30,623 bases of DNA from a virus, in the IMG/VR virus record IMGVR_UViG_3300028025_006240, positions 1 to 30,623 of that record, one strand, 5' to 3'. The number at the start of each line of letters is the position of its first letter. Position 1 is the stretch's first letter. The notes under the pieces are model-generated. The model saw nothing but the letters and a program-made list of their open reading frames with translations, was not told the DNA's origin and did no database searches. Position numbers and translations under genes: made by a program. Of this stretch, positions 26-17,126 are shown piece by piece.

Positions 26-583
26 ATGGCAGGATTACCTCACTACTCAAACTCGCAATCTGCATTAAACCTTTTTGAACCGGTTTTTCTAAACCAGTTC
101 GAGGTTATAATCGTTCCACCAGCTTCTGTGTTGGGAGGAAATTTACTTTTGGAGCACGTTAAATCAATTTCTGGATTAACACTGGATAAAACTCCAGAAC
201 CTATTTTCCAAAAGTATAAGTTTGCCAAGCGTAACTATGCAGGAGGAAAGCCAGCAACAACTTACATGGATCTTTCAATGAACTTCAACGTTAACTTGAA
301 CGATAGAAATTCTATGTACGTTTTTAAAACACTTCGTCAGTGGAGTGATCTGATTTATAATCCGATCACCGGAGCACAAGGTCTGAAAAGAGATTACGTT
401 GGATCTATGACTATCAGTATGTTCAATAAACAAGGAGATGTTTATCGCCGAGTTAGATGTATTGATTGCTTCCCAACTAAGCCTATCAGCCCTATGCCTC
501 TTAACTACGAAGAGGGAGAAGCAGTTTATGAAATTTCCCAGTTTGGCTGGGCAGTTGATTACTGGGAGGATCTATTCTTGTAA
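26..583 (+). CDS. tail tube protein, gp19-like, copy 1
   Basis: This 185-residue protein probably polymerises into the inner tube of a contractile tail. T4 gp19 is 163 residues, so the length is suitable. It opens with MAGLPH, carries the block EPVFLNQFEV near residue 20, a central LRQWSDLIYNPITGAQGLK segment, and ends in YWEDLFL. All of these recur in the next gene, so the two are tandem paralogs. The start is the first ATG after a GATATATA box, and no Shine-Dalgarno site is obvious. The tube assignment rests on recalled similarity to gp19-like proteins of marine T4-like phages and on the hub-type gene that follows. One copy could instead be a tube-fold baseplate or tail-terminus protein, as T4 gp48 and gp54 are. 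Confidence 0.78.
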   Translation: MAGLPHYSNSQSALNLFEPVFLNQFEVIIVPPASVLGGNLLLEHVKSISGLTLDKTPEPIFQKYKFAKRNYAGGKPATTYMDLSMNFNVNLNDRNSMYVFKTLRQWSDLIYNPITGAQGLKRDYVGSMTISMFNKQGDVYRRVRCIDCFPTKPISPMPLNYEEGEAVYEISQFGWAVDYWEDLFL

Positions 584-604: not shown

Positions 605-1183
605 ATGGCCGGTTTACCACACTTTACAAATTCAAAAGCAGGACTTTTCAATTACGAACCAGTCTTTCTAAATCAGTTTGAGGTTTTAATAACTCCTCCT
701 AATGGGATAGTTGCTGCATCAAGAACTTTTAAGGGAGAAAGCATTCTAACCCAACAAATTAAAAGTATTGAAGGTTTAGCAGTTGATATTGCACCAGCTT
801 CACCAGTTGAACAAAAATACAAATTCGCAAGTCGTCGTTATGCTGGTGGGGAACCTTCAACATCGGATTTGCAGTTCTCTACAGTATTCGAAGTCAACCT
901 GGATGATACAAACTCTATGGCTGTTTATAAGATTCTTAGACAATGGGCAGATCTTATCTACAATCCTCTTACTGGAGCTATGGGTCTTAAAACTGATTAC
1001 GTTGGATCTATGCTTATTTCTATCTTTAATAAAAGAGGTGACGTTTTCAGAAGAATACGTATACCATCTTGCTTTATTGCTTCATCAATAAACGAGATGC
1101 CTCTTTCATACGATCAAGGTAATGCTATCTATACAGTTACACTGGAATGGAAAGCAGATTACTGGGAAGATCTTTTCCTCTAA
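605..1183 (+). CDS. tail tube protein, gp19-like, copy 2
   Basis: This 192-residue protein is a paralog of the preceding one. Both share MAGLPH, EPVFLNQFEV, QKYKFA, YAGG, LRQW(S/A)DLIYNP, DYVGSM and the terminal YWEDLFL. It differs mainly by a longer insert around residues 30-60. It starts 21 nt after copy 1 stops, with an A/G-rich leader (AGGAAACAAAAGGC) that may help ribosome binding. A strong intrinsic terminator follows, so the two tube genes look like one transcript. Whether both polymerise together, or one caps the tube or joins the baseplate, cannot be read from sequence. Confidence 0.78.
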   Translation: MAGLPHFTNSKAGLFNYEPVFLNQFEVLITPPNGIVAASRTFKGESILTQQIKSIEGLAVDIAPASPVEQKYKFASRRYAGGEPSTSDLQFSTVFEVNLDDTNSMAVYKILRQWADLIYNPLTGAMGLKTDYVGSMLISIFNKRGDVFRRIRIPSCFIASSINEMPLSYDQGNAIYTVTLEWKADYWEDLFL

Positions 1184-1276: not shown

Positions 1277-2347
1277 ATGACATCTAAATTTAATTTATCT
1301 CCAGGAGACCTAATATCTGGAAGTGATGCTGAAGAGGCATTAAGAATCCTTCAGGAGAAAGAAAAAACCGGGGGTTTGAAGTATGATGAATTGCCAGAAT
1401 CACCTGAATTAGATAATAAAGAACATATTGAGGAAGAAGTTCCGGTAGTAAAGAAACAGGAAGGACCGCTTGGTAAATCCATATCTGCTCAACAGATGGA
1501 ACATAATAAAGTTCTGGCTATGCAAAATGGCTGGAAAAATTTACCTTTGAATCTGTTACCTAGCCAGGGTTTATTTTATCCTCATGGCACTCAGATTGCT
1601 ATTATAGCTGCAGAGGTAAAAGAAATTAGACACTTTTCTTCAATCGACGAAGGAGATTTAATTGATATCGAATCTAAGCTAAATTACATACTAGATAAGT
1701 GTAGTAGGATAATGTTTGGCGACGATGGGGTAGTTTCTTACAAGGATCTTAAATATGAGGATAGATTCTATATAGTTTTGGCAATACGTGATCTGACCTT
1801 TATAAAGGGCGAAAATAGAATCGTTCTTCAACCAAAAACAGATTGCGAAAAGAAAGATTGTTTATTAGCTAACGGGATTGAATTAAGAACCGGAGTATTA
1901 TCAAGATACGAGATACCTGATAATATTATGAAATATTATGATCAGGAGACTTCGTCATTCTCATTCACCATTAAAAAGACCGGTAAAAGAGTTGAAATGA
2001 CTATACCATCGATTGGTGTAATGGAAAGGATCTCAGAATTTTTTGGATCACAAAGAAGAAAGGGCGTTGAAATGGACGAGGGATTCCAAAAAATAGCTCC
2101 GTTTATTTTTCCTGAGTGGAGAGAGCTTAGTGATTCCACCATAATGAGTAAAATGAGGGAAATTGATTACTGGAGCAAGGAAGAATATTCTTTGGTTTTT
2201 GAGCTTAGCGAAAAAATTAAAGTAGGTACTAAACCACATCTTAACTTAAAATGCAATTGCGGTGCCGAGGTCGCCGCTGCTATAACCTTTCCCAGCGGAT
2301 ACAGATCTCTTTTCGTTATTTCAGATATCTTTAGCGAACTTCTTTGA
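1277..2347 (+). CDS. baseplate hub / tail assembly protein, gp26-like
   Basis: This 356-residue protein resembles the T4 gp26 baseplate family (PF12322), recalled rather than searched. About 90 N-terminal residues are charged and acidic. The core follows from NLPLNLLPSQGLFYPHGT, a typical opening of this family, and includes a Cys cluster near the C-terminus (LKCNCGAE). I chose the ATG at 1277; an in-frame TTG at 1241 would begin inside the terminator T-run. The frame ends at CTT TGA. The +1 frame then continues without a start codon for 61 codons in a Trp/Tyr-rich segment like the usual C-terminus of this family, so the product is probably partly extended by frameshift. It sits between tube and tape-measure-like genes, where frameshifted tail chaperones are found. 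Confidence 0.72.
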   Translation: MTSKFNLSPGDLISGSDAEEALRILQEKEKTGGLKYDELPESPELDNKEHIEEEVPVVKKQEGPLGKSISAQQMEHNKVLAMQNGWKNLPLNLLPSQGLFYPHGTQIAIIAAEVKEIRHFSSIDEGDLIDIESKLNYILDKCSRIMFGDDGVVSYKDLKYEDRFYIVLAIRDLTFIKGENRIVLQPKTDCEKKDCLLANGIELRTGVLSRYEIPDNIMKYYDQETSSFSFTIKKTGKRVEMTIPSIGVMERISEFFGSQRRKGVEMDEGFQKIAPFIFPEWRELSDSTIMSKMREIDYWSKEEYSLVFELSEKIKVGTKPHLNLKCNCGAEVAAAITFPSGYRSLFVISDIFSELL

Positions 2348-2531
2348 TATTAAGTTCAGACTATGGCATGAATATAGGCTTGATCCCGAATGGGTCGAGG
2401 GAATACCATATTGGGAATACCAGCTTTGGATCGATAAATTAAACGATGCAATAGAAAAACAAAATCAGGAAGCTATGACGGATGGTGGAAAAGTACAGGT
2501 GTTTAACCTGGTAAATCCCTCTGTAAAGTAA
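2346..2531 (+). CDS. C-terminal extension of the hub gene, reached by predicted +1 frameshift
   Basis: After the codon CTT at 2342-2344 the zero frame reads TGA. Slipping forward by one base (CTT to TTT) gives GAT and an open run of 61 codons to TAA at 2529-2531. No ATG occurs in this frame before 2475, so it is unlikely to be a separate gene. The peptide includes LWHEYRLDPEW and IPYWEYQLWIDKLND and ends NPSVK, a pattern expected of the gp26/tail-chaperone C-terminal domain. CTT TGA is the slip site used in bacterial prfB (release factor 2). A one-base sequence error, or a real mutation, is the alternative. Confidence 0.6.
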   Translation, partial: DIKFRLWHEYRLDPEWVEGIPYWEYQLWIDKLNDAIEKQNQEAMTDGGKVQVFNLVNPSVK

Positions 2532-2547: not shown

Positions 2548-3915
2548 GTGCCAAGTAATAAAATCCCGGAATCAGTTATATTGGATCTAGGTAGAAATCT
2601 AGATACCTTTATGAAAAAGCAAGACCAGATGATTGGTAAGTTATCTAGTGGTCTGGATAAATTTGATTCTATCCCGGATAGAATAGAGAAAGCACAAAAC
2701 TCTGTATTTGAAAAAATAGAAAAAGCTGCTTCACCTATTAATCTTGGTTCTGATATAGGAAAGAAATTAGATTCACTAGTTAAGGGTATAGCTGAACAAA
2801 ATATAGAAAGCAAAACCAGTTCGGAAAAAATACTTTCTATTTTTAAACCAGCTAAAGCAGAGGGTGAAAGAAAACCAGCAGATTTAACATCTATATTATC
2901 TGCATTGCCTAAATTTAAAAATGGTGGTGAGGTAAAAGAAGGCGGCATGGGTATAGTTGGCGATGCCGGTCCTGAAGTTGTTTTATTACCGAAGGGATCT
3001 GAGGTGGTGCCACTTAAATTGGAAGATGTATTTAGAGAGACAGCCCAATATTTTAAATCTATAGATCCTTCTGTTTCATTAAAAGAAATATTTGGATCAG
3101 ATGATCTTATATTTTCTAAATCCGAAGGAGAATTTCTAGCTTATAGAAAAAAGGCTAACTCTGAAGAGCCTGATGATAATTTCGACCCTATTTCCCTTAC
3201 TAAGAAGGTTGAGGATCTCCAAAATCTTGCCGAAGAGACCAGTAAAAATCCGGCTTCAACTGACGAGGAGCTGGAAACTAGTAGGGAGCAGGCCAGAGCA
3301 ATAAAGGATCTTATGGATCTTGTTAAGATTACCCCGCCCAAAATACTAGAAGGCCCTAAAAAGGAAGAGACTGCTGCTTTCATAAATACAGAGGAGAGAG
3401 TTAGATTAGCTGCTGAGAATAAAATAGCTGAGGAAAAGGCAAAGGTTGAGAATACGCTAGAAAACCTTTCACAGCCCGCTAAACCCCTTAACCCCATAAA
3501 AGAAACGGTCGAAGAACTGAAGAGCGCGGTATTAAAGAAAACCGAGATCCCTAAGCTAGAGGAACCAGTTTCACTAAGACAAGTAAATATACCCGAACTA
3601 AAGAGACCACCGGTATCTGCTCCAAAAGCCCAAGAGAGTACCAAAACACCAGGAGCTGAGAAACCAAATGAGGTCATAGTTAAACAAACCGAAACAGTTA
3701 CCCCAACTGCGGAAGCTTCAGCCACTGCAGAAGCTTCGATAAGGCAGGAAAAATCTAAAGAAGAGGACAGAGAATCTTCTAAAGCAGAATTCCAGCAAGT
3801 TATGCAGATGATGTCGGAAATATCTAAAACTTTATCCGATATGAACTCTTCTCTAAAAAGACCACTTATCGTTGCTGACGGGAATCCGATCCGGCCTAGA
3901 ACTACTAATTTTTAA
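2548..3915 (+). CDS. tail protein with tape-measure-like motif
   Basis: This protein has up to 455 residues and is largely charged helix and likely coiled coil. Around residues 129-152 it carries GGEVKEGGMGIVGDAGPEVV followed by LLPKGSEVVPL. That Gly-x-Val-Gly-Asp-Ala-Gly-Pro-Glu signature is common in phage tape-measure and tail-associated proteins. The C-terminal third is rich in Lys, Glu, Pro, Ala and Thr and looks disordered. Position, directly after a hub/chaperone gene, fits a tail-length or tail-core role, though it is short for a tape measure (T4 gp29 is 590 residues). The start is uncertain: GTG at 2548 is only 4 nt from a promoter-like box, and ATG at 2611 is the next in-frame choice. 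Confidence 0.5.
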   Translation: MPSNKIPESVILDLGRNLDTFMKKQDQMIGKLSSGLDKFDSIPDRIEKAQNSVFEKIEKAASPINLGSDIGKKLDSLVKGIAEQNIESKTSSEKILSIFKPAKAEGERKPADLTSILSALPKFKNGGEVKEGGMGIVGDAGPEVVLLPKGSEVVPLKLEDVFRETAQYFKSIDPSVSLKEIFGSDDLIFSKSEGEFLAYRKKANSEEPDDNFDPISLTKKVEDLQNLAEETSKNPASTDEELETSREQARAIKDLMDLVKITPPKILEGPKKEETAAFINTEERVRLAAENKIAEEKAKVENTLENLSQPAKPLNPIKETVEELKSAVLKKTEIPKLEEPVSLRQVNIPELKRPPVSAPKAQESTKTPGAEKPNEVIVKQTETVTPTAEASATAEASIRQEKSKEEDRESSKAEFQQVMQMMSEISKTLSDMNSSLKRPLIVADGNPIRPRTTNF

Positions 3916-3972: not shown

Positions 3973-4536
3973 ATGAGTAAAATTAAAGCGTCAGAATTTT
4001 TTAATTCACCAGAATTAATTAATAGCAATTATTGGACTGTTATTCAGCATCCTACATACAGGTCACTCGATATGATCTTATACGGGAATGACCTATCTGA
4101 TATAATGGGGTATCTGGATGAAAAAACCGTGAAAATGGATTTGATCTACCTTAGAATGAGTACTATATGGTCCGAATGCTCAAAATGCAATAGGATGAAG
4201 GTTGGCTGTTTAATGGTAAAAGACAAGTCTATTATATCAAATGGGTATAACGGATCACCACACGGATTTCCTAATATTTGCGAGGATGAAGATAATAACA
4301 CATTACCGTATGTTTTACATGCAGAAGCAAATGCAATTACCAAATTAGCAAAAAGTACTCTTAGCTCGGATGGATCAACGATATATGTTACCGTTTCACC
4401 CTGCTACGAATGCTCGAAACTAATAATCCAATCTGGCGTAAAAAGATTGGTAATCAAAGACTTATACAGGAAAACCGATTCTATACCCTTCCTCTGCGAA
4501 GCAGGTGTAGAAATAACTAGGATAGGGGTGATTTAA
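3973..4536 (+). CDS. deoxycytidylate (dCMP) deaminase
   Basis: This 187-residue enzyme should deaminate dCMP to dUMP, feeding thymidylate synthesis. The zinc-dependent deaminase signature is intact: His-Ala-Glu at residues 116-118 and Pro-Cys-Tyr-Glu-Cys at 143-147. A further Cys cluster (CSKCNRMKVGC, residues 69-79) and GYNGSPHG (91-98) are typical of dCMP deaminases. The first 55 or so residues form an N-terminal extension without a recognised motif. A candidate host-type promoter precedes it, and a sigma-factor gene follows 21 nt later. Confidence 0.9.
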   Translation: MSKIKASEFFNSPELINSNYWTVIQHPTYRSLDMILYGNDLSDIMGYLDEKTVKMDLIYLRMSTIWSECSKCNRMKVGCLMVKDKSIISNGYNGSPHGFPNICEDEDNNTLPYVLHAEANAITKLAKSTLSSDGSTIYVTVSPCYECSKLIIQSGVKRLVIKDLYRKTDSIPFLCEAGVEITRIGVI

Positions 4537-8110: not shown

Positions 8111-8803
8111 ATGTCAGCAACAGGAGCAGCGTTAGAAGATGCACAATTTTACTGGGACGGAGGCCAATCATCTGGTGCACCGGATCCAAGTTTCTATAAT
8201 ACACTTTATGGAGGTAGTGATCAATTTGCGTTAGCTCCTGGTGCTTCTGCTAGTACAGATATAGTTTACCGAAATGTAGCTCAGAATAGAGAGCAAATAA
8301 AGATTGTTGGTCTAACATTCAGAGACTATAACGATCCTAGGGAATTTAAATTTTTTAATACAGCTTGGAATATATCATACCAGGCACAGACAGAGGAAAC
8401 AGTAGACGTTACTAGTTTTTTCCATCCCATTCAAAGTTTTTCTTCCTGGCAGAAACAAACTGTAGTACTAGCACCATTAAGCTCAATCAACTTAGATCCC
8501 GGTGATTTTGACAACACAAAAGGTGAGATAAGTTTTATGTTGGTTAAGCCAATCTATAATCCTGCTGCAACAGAGGAAGAGCGTGTTTGCTTTTGGAACT
8601 ATAAAGGTACCCATAGATTCCTAATAGGATCTATATTAATATTATCAGGAGCGATAAAAGATGGTTATAAATGGAAAGGCTGGAGTGTAAGCCCGTTTCC
8701 CGACGATCTCCAATCCGGCGATCCTGATCCATCACTAGGTGGATTCATATTTTCAAATCCCACTGATCTTTCAGTGAAGCTAATAATTTTAACTGCATCG
8801 TAA
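8111..8803 (+). CDS. beta-rich protein, probable virion component
   Basis: I do not recognise this 230-residue protein. It is rich in aromatic, Ser, Gly and Pro residues and low in Lys/Glu helices, as in beta-sandwich phage structural proteins. Its last 80 residues resemble the end of the next gene: an aromatic WNY motif, IGSILILSG, a GW(S/N) motif, GGFIFSNP and a final VKLIILTAS. It could be a decoration, neck or fibre-associated protein; the sequence does not decide. Confidence 0.6.
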   Translation: MSATGAALEDAQFYWDGGQSSGAPDPSFYNTLYGGSDQFALAPGASASTDIVYRNVAQNREQIKIVGLTFRDYNDPREFKFFNTAWNISYQAQTEETVDVTSFFHPIQSFSSWQKQTVVLAPLSSINLDPGDFDNTKGEISFMLVKPIYNPAATEEERVCFWNYKGTHRFLIGSILILSGAIKDGYKWKGWSVSPFPDDLQSGDPDPSLGGFIFSNPTDLSVKLIILTAS

Positions 8804-13908: not shown

Positions 13909-15531
13909 ATGGCAGGTTTCGTTGATGATTCAAAACAAGCACCGATCATACAAAGGATTAGGGATAGCGTAAAAAGCTTATCCTCTTTTGGTATGAGGTA
14001 TAACGATCTGGTGATTAAAAATTCCCAGGCGATCGGAGCAACAGAAGCGATATTCTTGAAAAAGAATCCAATCGAAGACGAGACAACTCTTTACGCTTTG
14101 GCAAAACAAGATACGCAGACAAAACAGTACATCTCGTATTTCGATAAGGACTATAAGGGTAAAAGAGAATTTCTCAGGAAATTTGCTTTAAATTCAGAGA
14201 TAGATTATCTACTGGATCTTGTTGCTGATGAGGCAATTACCTACGATTCTAAACACTTCTTTGCATATCCATCTTTTCTTAATTTTACTGATGCTAAAAA
14301 ACAATTGTTGGATGACATCAATACTACTTACAATAAGCTATATGATGTATGGGGTTTCAATGACGATATAAGTGCTTGGCAATTATTTAGACAGTTTCTG
14401 GTAGAAGGATTTCTAGCATTTGAAATGGTCTATGACGATAAGGGAAAGGAAATAATAGGTTTTAAAGAATTAGATCCTACAACCTTACAGCCTAGCGTAG
14501 AAAAGCAATTGGATGGAACCTTTTTAAACATCTGGGTTCAGTATCCAGATGACGATAAGAAAAGAAGGGTACTCTACGATTCACAGATCATTTATATTTC
14601 TTATGCTAAAGGAAACGCAGTTTCTAGAATAAGCTACGTTGAGAGATTGATCAGACCTTATAACGTATTGAGAATAATGGAATATACCAGAATTATCTGG
14701 TCTGTTATGAATGCATCTTTCAGGTTAAAGATGACTGTACCGATCGGTTCTAAATCTCCACAAAAAGCAATGCAGACCTTGGGAGAACTAATGTCTATCT
14801 ATAAGGAGGATATCAGATTTGACAATGACTCTGGAGAACTATTTGTAGATGGCAGGCCTAAAATACAGTTCTATAAGAACTATATGATGCCTTCTGGCAC
14901 AAACGGTACACCAACCATTGAACCAGTAAACATTGCAGGGCCTAATCTAAGTGACACAACACCATTACAATATTTTTGGGAAAAGTTCATAGAGGAATCT
15001 AAGGTTCCAGTTTCGAGATTTAGCGGTCCAGATTTTACCCCACAGGGAGCTTATGTAAATGGAGCAGAAGGACTAGATAAGGACGAGATTAGATTTGGTA
15101 AGTTCATCAATCGATTAAGATCTAATTTCCAAGATATGATGGTTAAACCTCTTTGGATTCAACTGTGCGAAAAATACCCGGCTTTAAAGAAAGACTTTGC
15201 TTTTAAAAGTCAGCTTGGTATAAGCTACGTAACTGAAAATCCATTTAGACTGAACCAGGAGATAGAAGTAATAACTAAGAAAAAAGATGGAGTTGTTGCA
15301 ATGGCTAGTCTATTGGATGATTTCGAAAGACCTTACTTCTCTCTTGATTTTCTAGTGAAGAATATGCTTGGCCTATCTGAGGATGATCTAAAAGAAAATA
15401 GAAGCACCAAGGAAAAAATAGCTAAGGAAAAAGCTAAGTTAGAAAAAGAGGGAGCAGAAACAACAGCTGCACAAGCAGCAGCCGCTCCAGCTGCAGAGCC
15501 AGCAACACCAACTGAAACAGCACCAGAATAA
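13909..15531 (+). CDS. portal vertex protein, gp20-like, copy 1
   Basis: This 540-residue protein should form the ring at the DNA-entry vertex, and T4 gp20 (524 residues) is the model. Features include INSEIDYLLDLVADEAIT-type helices near residue 100, LFRQFLVEGFLAFEMVYDD, KELDPTTLQP, a long helix with RIMEYTRIIWSVMNASFRLK, GRPKIQFYKNY, and DEIRFGKFINRLRSNFQDMM, the last typical of gp20. The last 35 residues are Ala/Glu/Pro-rich and probably disordered. Its TAA shares one base with the ATG of a second portal-like gene, so the pair is translationally coupled. Confidence 0.85.
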   Translation: MAGFVDDSKQAPIIQRIRDSVKSLSSFGMRYNDLVIKNSQAIGATEAIFLKKNPIEDETTLYALAKQDTQTKQYISYFDKDYKGKREFLRKFALNSEIDYLLDLVADEAITYDSKHFFAYPSFLNFTDAKKQLLDDINTTYNKLYDVWGFNDDISAWQLFRQFLVEGFLAFEMVYDDKGKEIIGFKELDPTTLQPSVEKQLDGTFLNIWVQYPDDDKKRRVLYDSQIIYISYAKGNAVSRISYVERLIRPYNVLRIMEYTRIIWSVMNASFRLKMTVPIGSKSPQKAMQTLGELMSIYKEDIRFDNDSGELFVDGRPKIQFYKNYMMPSGTNGTPTIEPVNIAGPNLSDTTPLQYFWEKFIEESKVPVSRFSGPDFTPQGAYVNGAEGLDKDEIRFGKFINRLRSNFQDMMVKPLWIQLCEKYPALKKDFAFKSQLGISYVTENPFRLNQEIEVITKKKDGVVAMASLLDDFERPYFSLDFLVKNMLGLSEDDLKENRSTKEKIAKEKAKLEKEGAETTAAQAAAAPAAEPATPTETAPE

Positions 15532-17126
15532 TGGCAGGATTTGTAGACCAAAACACAGGAAGAGGTGGCGTATTCAATAGAATATACCAAACATTGACAC
15601 GAGTTGGAAAACTCGGTATGCAATATGATGACATGGTCATTAACAACTCCCAAGCTATCGGAAGGGTAGAATCCCAATTCTATAATCAGGAGGATACAGG
15701 ATTTACCGACAATGAGGCATTCAGATGGACGGTTGGATACCAGGACATCAAAACAAGAAAGTATATTGCTTATTTCGATAAGGATTATGGAAGTAAGGTA
15801 AATTTTCTTAGAAAGTTTTCTCTTAATGGTGAGATAGAATTTATCCTTGATACTATATGCGACGAAGCTATAGTTTCTGATGATAGAAATTTCATCGCAT
15901 ATCCCACTTTAGAGGGTGTAGCAATGAAGGAAAAGGTCCTTAATTCTATTAGCGATAATTTCAAAAAACTATACATGCTTCTGGGATTTCAGAACGGAAT
16001 CACGGCATGGCAATATTTTAGACAATTCCTGGTTGAAGGATTCCTTGCTTTTGAGATTGTCTATGATGATAAAGCTAAAAATATAGTTGGATTTAAAGAA
16101 CTTGATCCTACATCTCTAGAACCACAAACGCAAAAGAATGCCGATGGGTCCTTCCAGCAACATTGGGTACAATACCCTAATGATAACAATATGAGAAGGG
16201 TACTTACCAACGAGCAGGTTATCTACATATCCTATGCTAAAGGTAATACGATCTCTAGGGTTTCTTACGTTGAAAAATTAATACGCTCGTATAATATTTT
16301 GCGTATAATGGAGAATACCAGAATTATCTGGAACGTAATGAATGCATCATACCGTTTGAAGTTCATTATACCGGTTGGTAACCAATCCCCGCAAAAGGCT
16401 TTAAATACGCTTGGCCAATTAATGTCCAATTATAAAGAGGAAATCGAGATAGATGACAACTCAGGAGAAATGACTATCAACGGAAGACCTAAGATCCAGT
16501 TCTATAAGAATTATCTTTTCCCAGACAAGAATGGCCAGACACCTCAGATCGATTCTTTAAATCCTAGTGGTCCTGATTTTAACGTAATGGAGAGCGTTAC
16601 TTACTTCTATAATAGACTTAAGATGGATTCCAAAATACCTTATGCAAGATTTGCATTTAGAGGCGCACCAGCATCTAATTATAGTGTAGGTATAGACCAG
16701 TTAGAAAGAGACGAAATCAGATACGAGAAATTCCTTTCCAGACACAGAGCTACGTTCCAAGAGATAATGATGAAGCCTTTGTATATCCAGATGATATTGG
16801 ATTATCCTGAATTGGCAAAGGATAGACAGTTTAAATCTAATCTGGGCATAACTTACAATAAGGAAAATCAATTTCAGGATTTTGTTAAGCTAGCTAACCT
16901 CACTAAAAGGATCACCTTTATTAATGGTATGGCTGAATTGAAACAAAAGGTTGGAGAGGAAGAGCAATCATACTTTAGTAAGGATTTCTTGGTTAGAAGA
17001 TATCTTGGTTTGTCTCCTGATGAGTATAAGCAGAATAATGATTATCTCAAGGCAGAAAAGATAGTAGCAGAGGAAGAAGCTAAGAAGAAAGCAAAAGCTG
17101 AAAAAGCTGAAGGATCTCCTGAATAG
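15531..17126 (+). CDS. portal vertex protein, gp20-like, copy 2
   Basis: This 531-residue protein aligns with copy 1 along its whole length. Shared blocks include the MAGFVD start, IAYFDKDYGSKVNFLRKFSL, FRQFLVEGFLAFEIVYDD, KELDPTSLEP, IYISYAKGN, RIMENTRIIWNVMNASYRLK, GRPKIQFYKNY and DEIRYEKFLSRHR. Both copies keep the core motifs, so neither looks decayed. Its C-terminal tail is Lys/Glu/Ala-rich, unlike the Ala/Pro tail of copy 1. It could form a mixed ring with copy 1, a separate ring, or an alternative portal; sequence alone does not say. Confidence 0.85.
   Translation: MAGFVDQNTGRGGVFNRIYQTLTRVGKLGMQYDDMVINNSQAIGRVESQFYNQEDTGFTDNEAFRWTVGYQDIKTRKYIAYFDKDYGSKVNFLRKFSLNGEIEFILDTICDEAIVSDDRNFIAYPTLEGVAMKEKVLNSISDNFKKLYMLLGFQNGITAWQYFRQFLVEGFLAFEIVYDDKAKNIVGFKELDPTSLEPQTQKNADGSFQQHWVQYPNDNNMRRVLTNEQVIYISYAKGNTISRVSYVEKLIRSYNILRIMENTRIIWNVMNASYRLKFIIPVGNQSPQKALNTLGQLMSNYKEEIEIDDNSGEMTINGRPKIQFYKNYLFPDKNGQTPQIDSLNPSGPDFNVMESVTYFYNRLKMDSKIPYARFAFRGAPASNYSVGIDQLERDEIRYEKFLSRHRATFQEIMMKPLYIQMILDYPELAKDRQFKSNLGITYNKENQFQDFVKLANLTKRITFINGMAELKQKVGEEEQSYFSKDFLVRRYLGLSPDEYKQNNDYLKAEKIVAEEEAKKKAKAEKAEGSPE

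Follow-up and report, generated by a model that had tools for sequence, protein, structure and literature searches.

The window analysed here is one entire IMG/VR contig of 30,623 bp. Close to one end it carries a gene whose product has 356 residues, and the features of this locus are collected in Table 1. Its neighbours are two tail-tube paralogs upstream and a gene with a weak tape-measure match (8e-4) downstream. The tube genes stand in tandem and are 56% identical. In named relatives, the sheath gene is found further upstream. A dCMP deaminase gene (window 3973-4536) directly follows the tail gene block. Elsewhere in the window, two tandem overlapping genes (13909-15531 and 15531-17126) belong by profile match to the portal family phrog_213, with E-values of 9e-56 and 4e-64. 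They share 50% identity, and two portal-like proteins are unusual for a phage.

Table 1. Features of the tail gene locus, in window coordinates
Feature	Position	Strand	Basis or detail
Tail-tube paralog 1	26..583	+	PHROG tail tube, 4e-6
Tail-tube paralog 2	605..1183	+	PHROG tail tube, 9e-11
Frame-0 ORF, short form (TAC-N, gp26/PF12322-like)	1277..2347	+	ATG 1277, stop TGA 2345-2347, 356 aa
GAG GTC	2267..2272	+	Third positions without change in two clades
+1 reading frame	2286..2531	+	Stop TAA 2529-2531; predicted long form 338 + 79 = 417 aa
TTT CCC, candidate +1 slip site	2288..2293	+	Codon invariance, zero parsimony changes, TTTCCC in 138/157
CTT TTC ("site B")	2309..2314	+	Amino-acid constraint switches to the +1 frame here; judged not to be the slip site
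Conserved +1 C-terminal domain, homologous to gp51 (TAC-C, "T")	2310..2528	+	Profile comparison
CTT CTT TGA	2339..2347	+	Taken as frame-0 stop only
Tape-measure-like gene	2548..3915	+	PHROG tape measure, 8e-4 (weak)

The 3' end of the gene is covered by two reading frames. The +1 frame is already open 20 codons ahead of the frame-0 stop and continues for 61 codons beyond it. Before position 2475 it holds no ATG, GTG or TTG, and its earliest ATG, at 2475, stands close to the end of the frame. A conserved +1 peptide, FSLFQISL..NFF, starts approximately 11 codons upstream of CTT TGA. The ending in CTT CTT TGA and the 61-codon frame with no usable start are thus as first described.

Several comparisons link the two parts of the gene to tail proteins of T4-like phages. 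The frame-0 protein is similar to T4-like gp26 (hhalign, E 8.5e-8), and the +1 extension to the cyanophage -1 extension and the C-terminus of T4 gp51 (probability 94.3, E 9.9e-8), each E-value coming from a single comparison of two profiles. A search with the window protein gave no match to the profile PF12322 (T4_baseplate, gp26/gp51). Two relatives exceed the gathering cut-off of 24.5 for that profile, namely L012 with 29.2 bits and phage PAU with 33.9 bits. A structure model of the frame-0 protein (mean pLDDT 77) gives Foldseek matches to baseplate hub proteins of other phages. It also matches a predicted tail assembly chaperone, or TAC (E 0.11, probability 0.95), and weakly the solved TAC of HK97 (2ob9; E 5.5, TMt 0.40).

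In T4, gp26 and gp51 are separate genes. Both belong to PF12322, they are homologous to each other (blastp 5e-6), and gp51 has an extra C-terminus. A -1 shift at T_TTT_TTC near the frame-0 stop connects gp26 with gp51 in 80 of the 80 distinct cyanophage-type sequences sampled. Records of cyanophages, pelagiphage Mosig and Stenotrophomonas phage DLP_6 (L190, L192 and L193; IMG/VR sequences L194-L273) list gp51 as a separate small gene. There it reads as a -1 extension of gp26, and many public annotations are incomplete at this point.

The window gene combines a location between tube and tape-measure genes, a 3' frame overlap with a long form sharing its N-terminus, and homology to recognised TACs. 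These features support its assignment, by sequence and gene order, as a TAC gene of the G/GT type, with frame 0 homologous to gp26 and the extension to gp51. The gp26-like identity and the role as a tail chaperone had been proposed before, and the two profile comparisons and the gene order agree with both. The accompanying description as a T4-like hub gene uses an old label; gp26 and gp51 are now seen as the T4-like TACs.

Relatives of the gene were found by tblastn in 31 phage records. These include Lak phages, LR huge phages, Chryseobacterium phages MA9V-1 and MA9V-2, Tenacibaculum phages pT24, PTm1 and PTm5, Sphingomonas phage PAU and Flavobacterium phage MaF61. Scans of IMG/VR gave several hundred matches, the best of which were retrieved for comparison; no relatives came from a scan that used the MA9V-1 protein as query. 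Site counts are taken over 157 distinct relatives. Since relatives lie on contigs of up to 434 kb, the window is probably part of a jumbo phage.

The split arrangement is kept in more than 150 distinct relatives, among them LR huge phages, pT24, PTm1, PAU and MA9V-1. In all lineages examined but one, the last part of frame 0 is overlapped by a +1 frame that codes for a similar peptide. The extension is longer in the Lak phages; the aligned extensions are those of other relatives. The exception is formed by L274 and L275 (2380-2700), where the frames do not overlap and the gp51-like domain starts at an ATG of its own just beyond the frame-0 stop. These two sequences read TTT CCA at the hexamer, and stops close their +1 frame. 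They represent a natural loss, in which the signal has gone where the frameshift has gone. The preservation of both frame and peptide among relatives lends support to the proposal of programmed +1 frameshifting with a short form of 356 and a long form of 417 residues.

Conservation at the level of nucleotides is seen in a short element 54 nt upstream of CTT TGA. An in-frame TTTCCC occurs here in 138 of the 157 distinct relatives, and TTT followed by C in 153. In the clade of the window, both TTT and CCC are fixed (59/59 each), and other invariant proline columns use three to four codons (two to four across the clades compared). In the L015 clade, TTT CCC is fixed in 49 of 49 sequences while other invariant proline and phenylalanine columns vary, and CCC is absent from the rest of the gene body (0 of 402 proline codons). 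Sequences within a clade are related, so that such raw counts overstate independence; parsimony counts, which allow for kinship in part, give 0 changes at all six bases on trees of length 10.3 and 6.1. Other third positions change on average 7.05 times in the window clade and 6.45 times in the L015 clade, which are the two clades with the best sampling.

In the marine clade, the same column holds TTT in 51 of 54 sequences. The next codon varies there (CCC 43, CCA 4, CCT 3, CAA 2, CGC 1, CGT 1), which points to UUU_C as the core element. UUU_C is the element common to nearly all relatives, and CCC would add a slow codon; its frequency in the window is 2.9 per thousand codons. The site resembles the cassette of influenza PA-X, with UUU in the P site, C as the next base and a rare codon in the A site. 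UUU_C is not universal. In L348, L349 and L352 the +1 frame is kept although the site reads TTC CCA, and in L018 it reads TAC CCC.

If ribosomes change frame at TTT CCC, the sequence downstream should be constrained in both frames. Directly after TTTCCC, third-position changes drop from 7.05 to 2.4 in the window clade and from 6.45 to 1.4 in the L015 clade, as dual coding predicts. No relative that keeps the overlap has a +1 stop between 2288 and 2309. In the window clade it is open from TTTCCC to CTTTTC in 38 of 38 cases, compared with a mean of 0.60 in a simple synonymous shuffle, a contrast among related sequences that is not to be read as a probability. Likewise, a variable codon for Leu, Ile, Phe or Tyr stands before Arg or Lys in this clade, and it never gives a +1 stop (59/59) despite 8 inferred changes. 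The marine clade has xTC or xTT before Arg or Lys in 54 of 54 sequences, with choices among Ile, Val and Leu. The peptide that the +1 frame encodes from TTTCCC to CTTTTC is itself poorly conserved, as it would be in a linker. Over the 11 codons that precede the stop, most substitutions leave the +1 peptide unchanged and alter the frame-0 one, and thus the +1 product is what selection sees there.

Elements that might stimulate a shift were also sought. No correctly spaced Shine-Dalgarno (SD) sequence was found for the candidate slip site. An SD-like GAGGT approximately 17 nt upstream of TTT CCC is conserved, the third positions of GAG GTC (-19 and -16) showing 0 changes in both clades; its spacing fits neither known +1 nor known -1 stimulation, and it was set aside. 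A stimulatory RNA structure was likewise rejected, as no alignment fold at the site beat shuffled columns. The only fold that did lies in a downstream stretch in the window clade (2 of 100) and is not seen in the L015 clade. In phage PAU (L022, 4815-4860), a hairpin starts at the TTTCCC site (z -1.65); other clades are without it. The window has a second in-frame TTT CCC at 8696, which is taken as chance, since a +1 stop follows shortly.

Several other explanations can be considered for the two frames. A sequencing indel or a decayed pseudogene could split a gene in this way, and the window is one contig. The same arrangement is found in three contigs from other metagenomes (L002-L004, approximately 97% protein identity), which excludes an indel in this assembly, and more than 150 distinct relatives share it with both frames under constraint. 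The indel that was once left as a possibility has therefore become negligible, as has the pseudogene. It is also very improbable that the gp51-like frame is a separate gene, translated without any frameshift from an internal start or by re-initiation. In L274 and L275 the domain does form an ORF apart, with an ATG to begin it, annotators have listed small ORFs here, and in the L015 clade the overlap contains ATG codons that could allow internal starts. Against this, no start codon occurs in the +1 frame of the window before 2475, upstream of which the conserved peptide already begins, and a separate gene leaves both the invariance of TTTCCC and the maintained open +1 frame unexplained. Another possibility is the one originally put forward, a slip at CTT TGA. 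prfB is read by +1 frameshifting at CUU_UGA, and the window has CTT TGA at 2342-2347, as do 40 of the 157 distinct sequences in all, every one of them in the window clade. The split frame, which was to be checked in relatives, proved to be conserved; CTT TGA did not. No other clade has it, and some members of the window clade retain the extension without it, with CTT GGA GAT TAA, CTT GGA AAT TAA, CTT CGA CCT TAA, TTT TGA or ATT TGA instead. The likeness to prfB thus extends to the +1 direction and to CTT TGA at the stop, and differs in conservation and in the SD element. The prfB-like AGGGGG approximately 3 nt upstream is absent, CTT TGA being preceded by TTTAGCGAACTT. In addition, the conserved frame ahead of this point is +1 and not frame 0. 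Since CTT TGA is unconserved even within the window clade and the conserved signal is TTT CCC, a prfB-type slip was rejected as hardly credible.

The strongest competitor is a +1 slip at CTT TTC, where tRNA-Leu would move from CUU to UUU. Up to this point amino-acid constraint lies on frame 0, beyond it on +1, and the position matches that of the cyanophage -1 site T_TTT_TTC. CTT TTC is also present in L348, L349 and L352, the sequences without UUU_C, and may serve as their slip site. In the marine clade, however, the Leu codon varies freely (CTT, CTC, CTA, CTG, TTA, TTG), and most of these codons cannot re-pair in the +1 frame. CTT TTC therefore cannot be the slip site in that clade. The invariance of its TTC is expected from dual coding, and a slip here explains neither the invariance of TTTCCC nor the +1 frame held open upstream. 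As the general slip site, CTT TTC is unlikely. Shifts by -2 were considered and rejected as well. The register TCT CTT TTC fits the window clade and not the relatives with ATT TTC or TTA TTC; at TTT CCC, inspection finds no -2 re-pairing.

The preferred reading is that of a TAC gene with a +1 slip at UUU_CCC, giving forms of 356 and 417 residues, and we put its probability at roughly 0.8. In this model, most ribosomes would stay in frame 0 and make the short, gp26-like form, comparable to lambda gpG. A minority would slip into the +1 frame at UUU_CCC. With the rare CCC waiting to be decoded, the peptidyl-tRNA-Phe would move from UUU to the better-paired UUC. The slipped reading would run ..ITF-P-ADTDLF-SLFQISLANFFDIKF.. 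and yield the long form, which ends in the gp51-like domain as a counterpart of lambda gpGT. If the parallel with lambda holds, the tape measure may be bound by the shared part and the tube protein recruited by the extension. If the model is true, its tie to rare CCC could set the ratio of short to long form through tRNA supply.

This model would give a function to a gene pair that the records of Tenacibaculum phages pT24 and PTm1, Chryseobacterium phage MA9V-1 and Flavobacterium phage MaF61 call "hypothetical protein". The same pair is unannotated in Lak and LR huge-phage records. Small ORFs annotated at this locus would be corrected. For the study of slippage on ribosomes of the host phylum, UUU_CCC with no stop codon would be an unusually well conserved natural +1 site.

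The closest parallel in gene organisation is lambda G/GT (Xu, Hendrix and Duda). Both genes lie between tube and tape measure, and in both the N-terminus is shared and the shift falls near the 3' end. The lambda shift is -1, whereas the window gene would shift +1 at UUU_CCC and belongs to the gp26/gp51 family. For haloarchaeal myovirus HSTV-2, a +1 shift in the TAC is described as "very likely" (PMC5009743). It likewise joins a TAC pair by +1, in an archaeal virus, and the comparison here is one of direction.

Other +1 systems resemble the proposed site itself. Slippage at CCC is reported for Listeria phages PSA, A118 and A500 (CCC_UGA) and for SPP1 gp17.1* (CCCUAA) (PMC5009743, PMC6316719). 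As proposed for the window gene, rare CCC drives +1 shifting in phage structural genes. These phages slip on CCC itself, in capsid or tail-tube genes and mostly beside a stop codon; the window site is UUU_CCC, with no stop, in a TAC gene. The influenza PA-X cassette, UCC_UUU_CGU (PMC5009743), shares the proposed slip of the P-site tRNA, UUU to UUC, next to a rare codon in the A site, and one relative of the window gene even has TTT CGT. The virus and the gene are unrelated, and in relatives of the window gene the E-site codon is unconserved and the A site is mostly CCC.

The identification of TACs in T4-like phages, some of which use poly-T -1 signals and others two genes, is credited to Vladimirov et al. 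2022 (cited through PMC10885494 and PMC12846349). Both of their domains are homologous to those of the window gene. The open-access literature searched gave no earlier account of a +1 shift at UUU_CCC, either for this gene or for these phages, and a +1 UUU_CCC version of the TAC across jumbo-phage lineages is, as far as found, new. It seems somewhat probable that a broad set of jumbo and mega-phages, several of them infecting Bacteroidota, make the ancient gp26/gp51 switch by +1 at UUU_CCC, where cyanophages keep -1 at U_UUU_UUC near the equivalent position. There would then be three solutions (-1, +1 and two genes), with a secondary loss in one lineage or more. Homologous proteins would thus form an evolutionary series, joined by -1 at T_TTT_TTC in cyanophages, by +1 from one gene in the window, or arising by gene duplication, with T4 keeping two genes.
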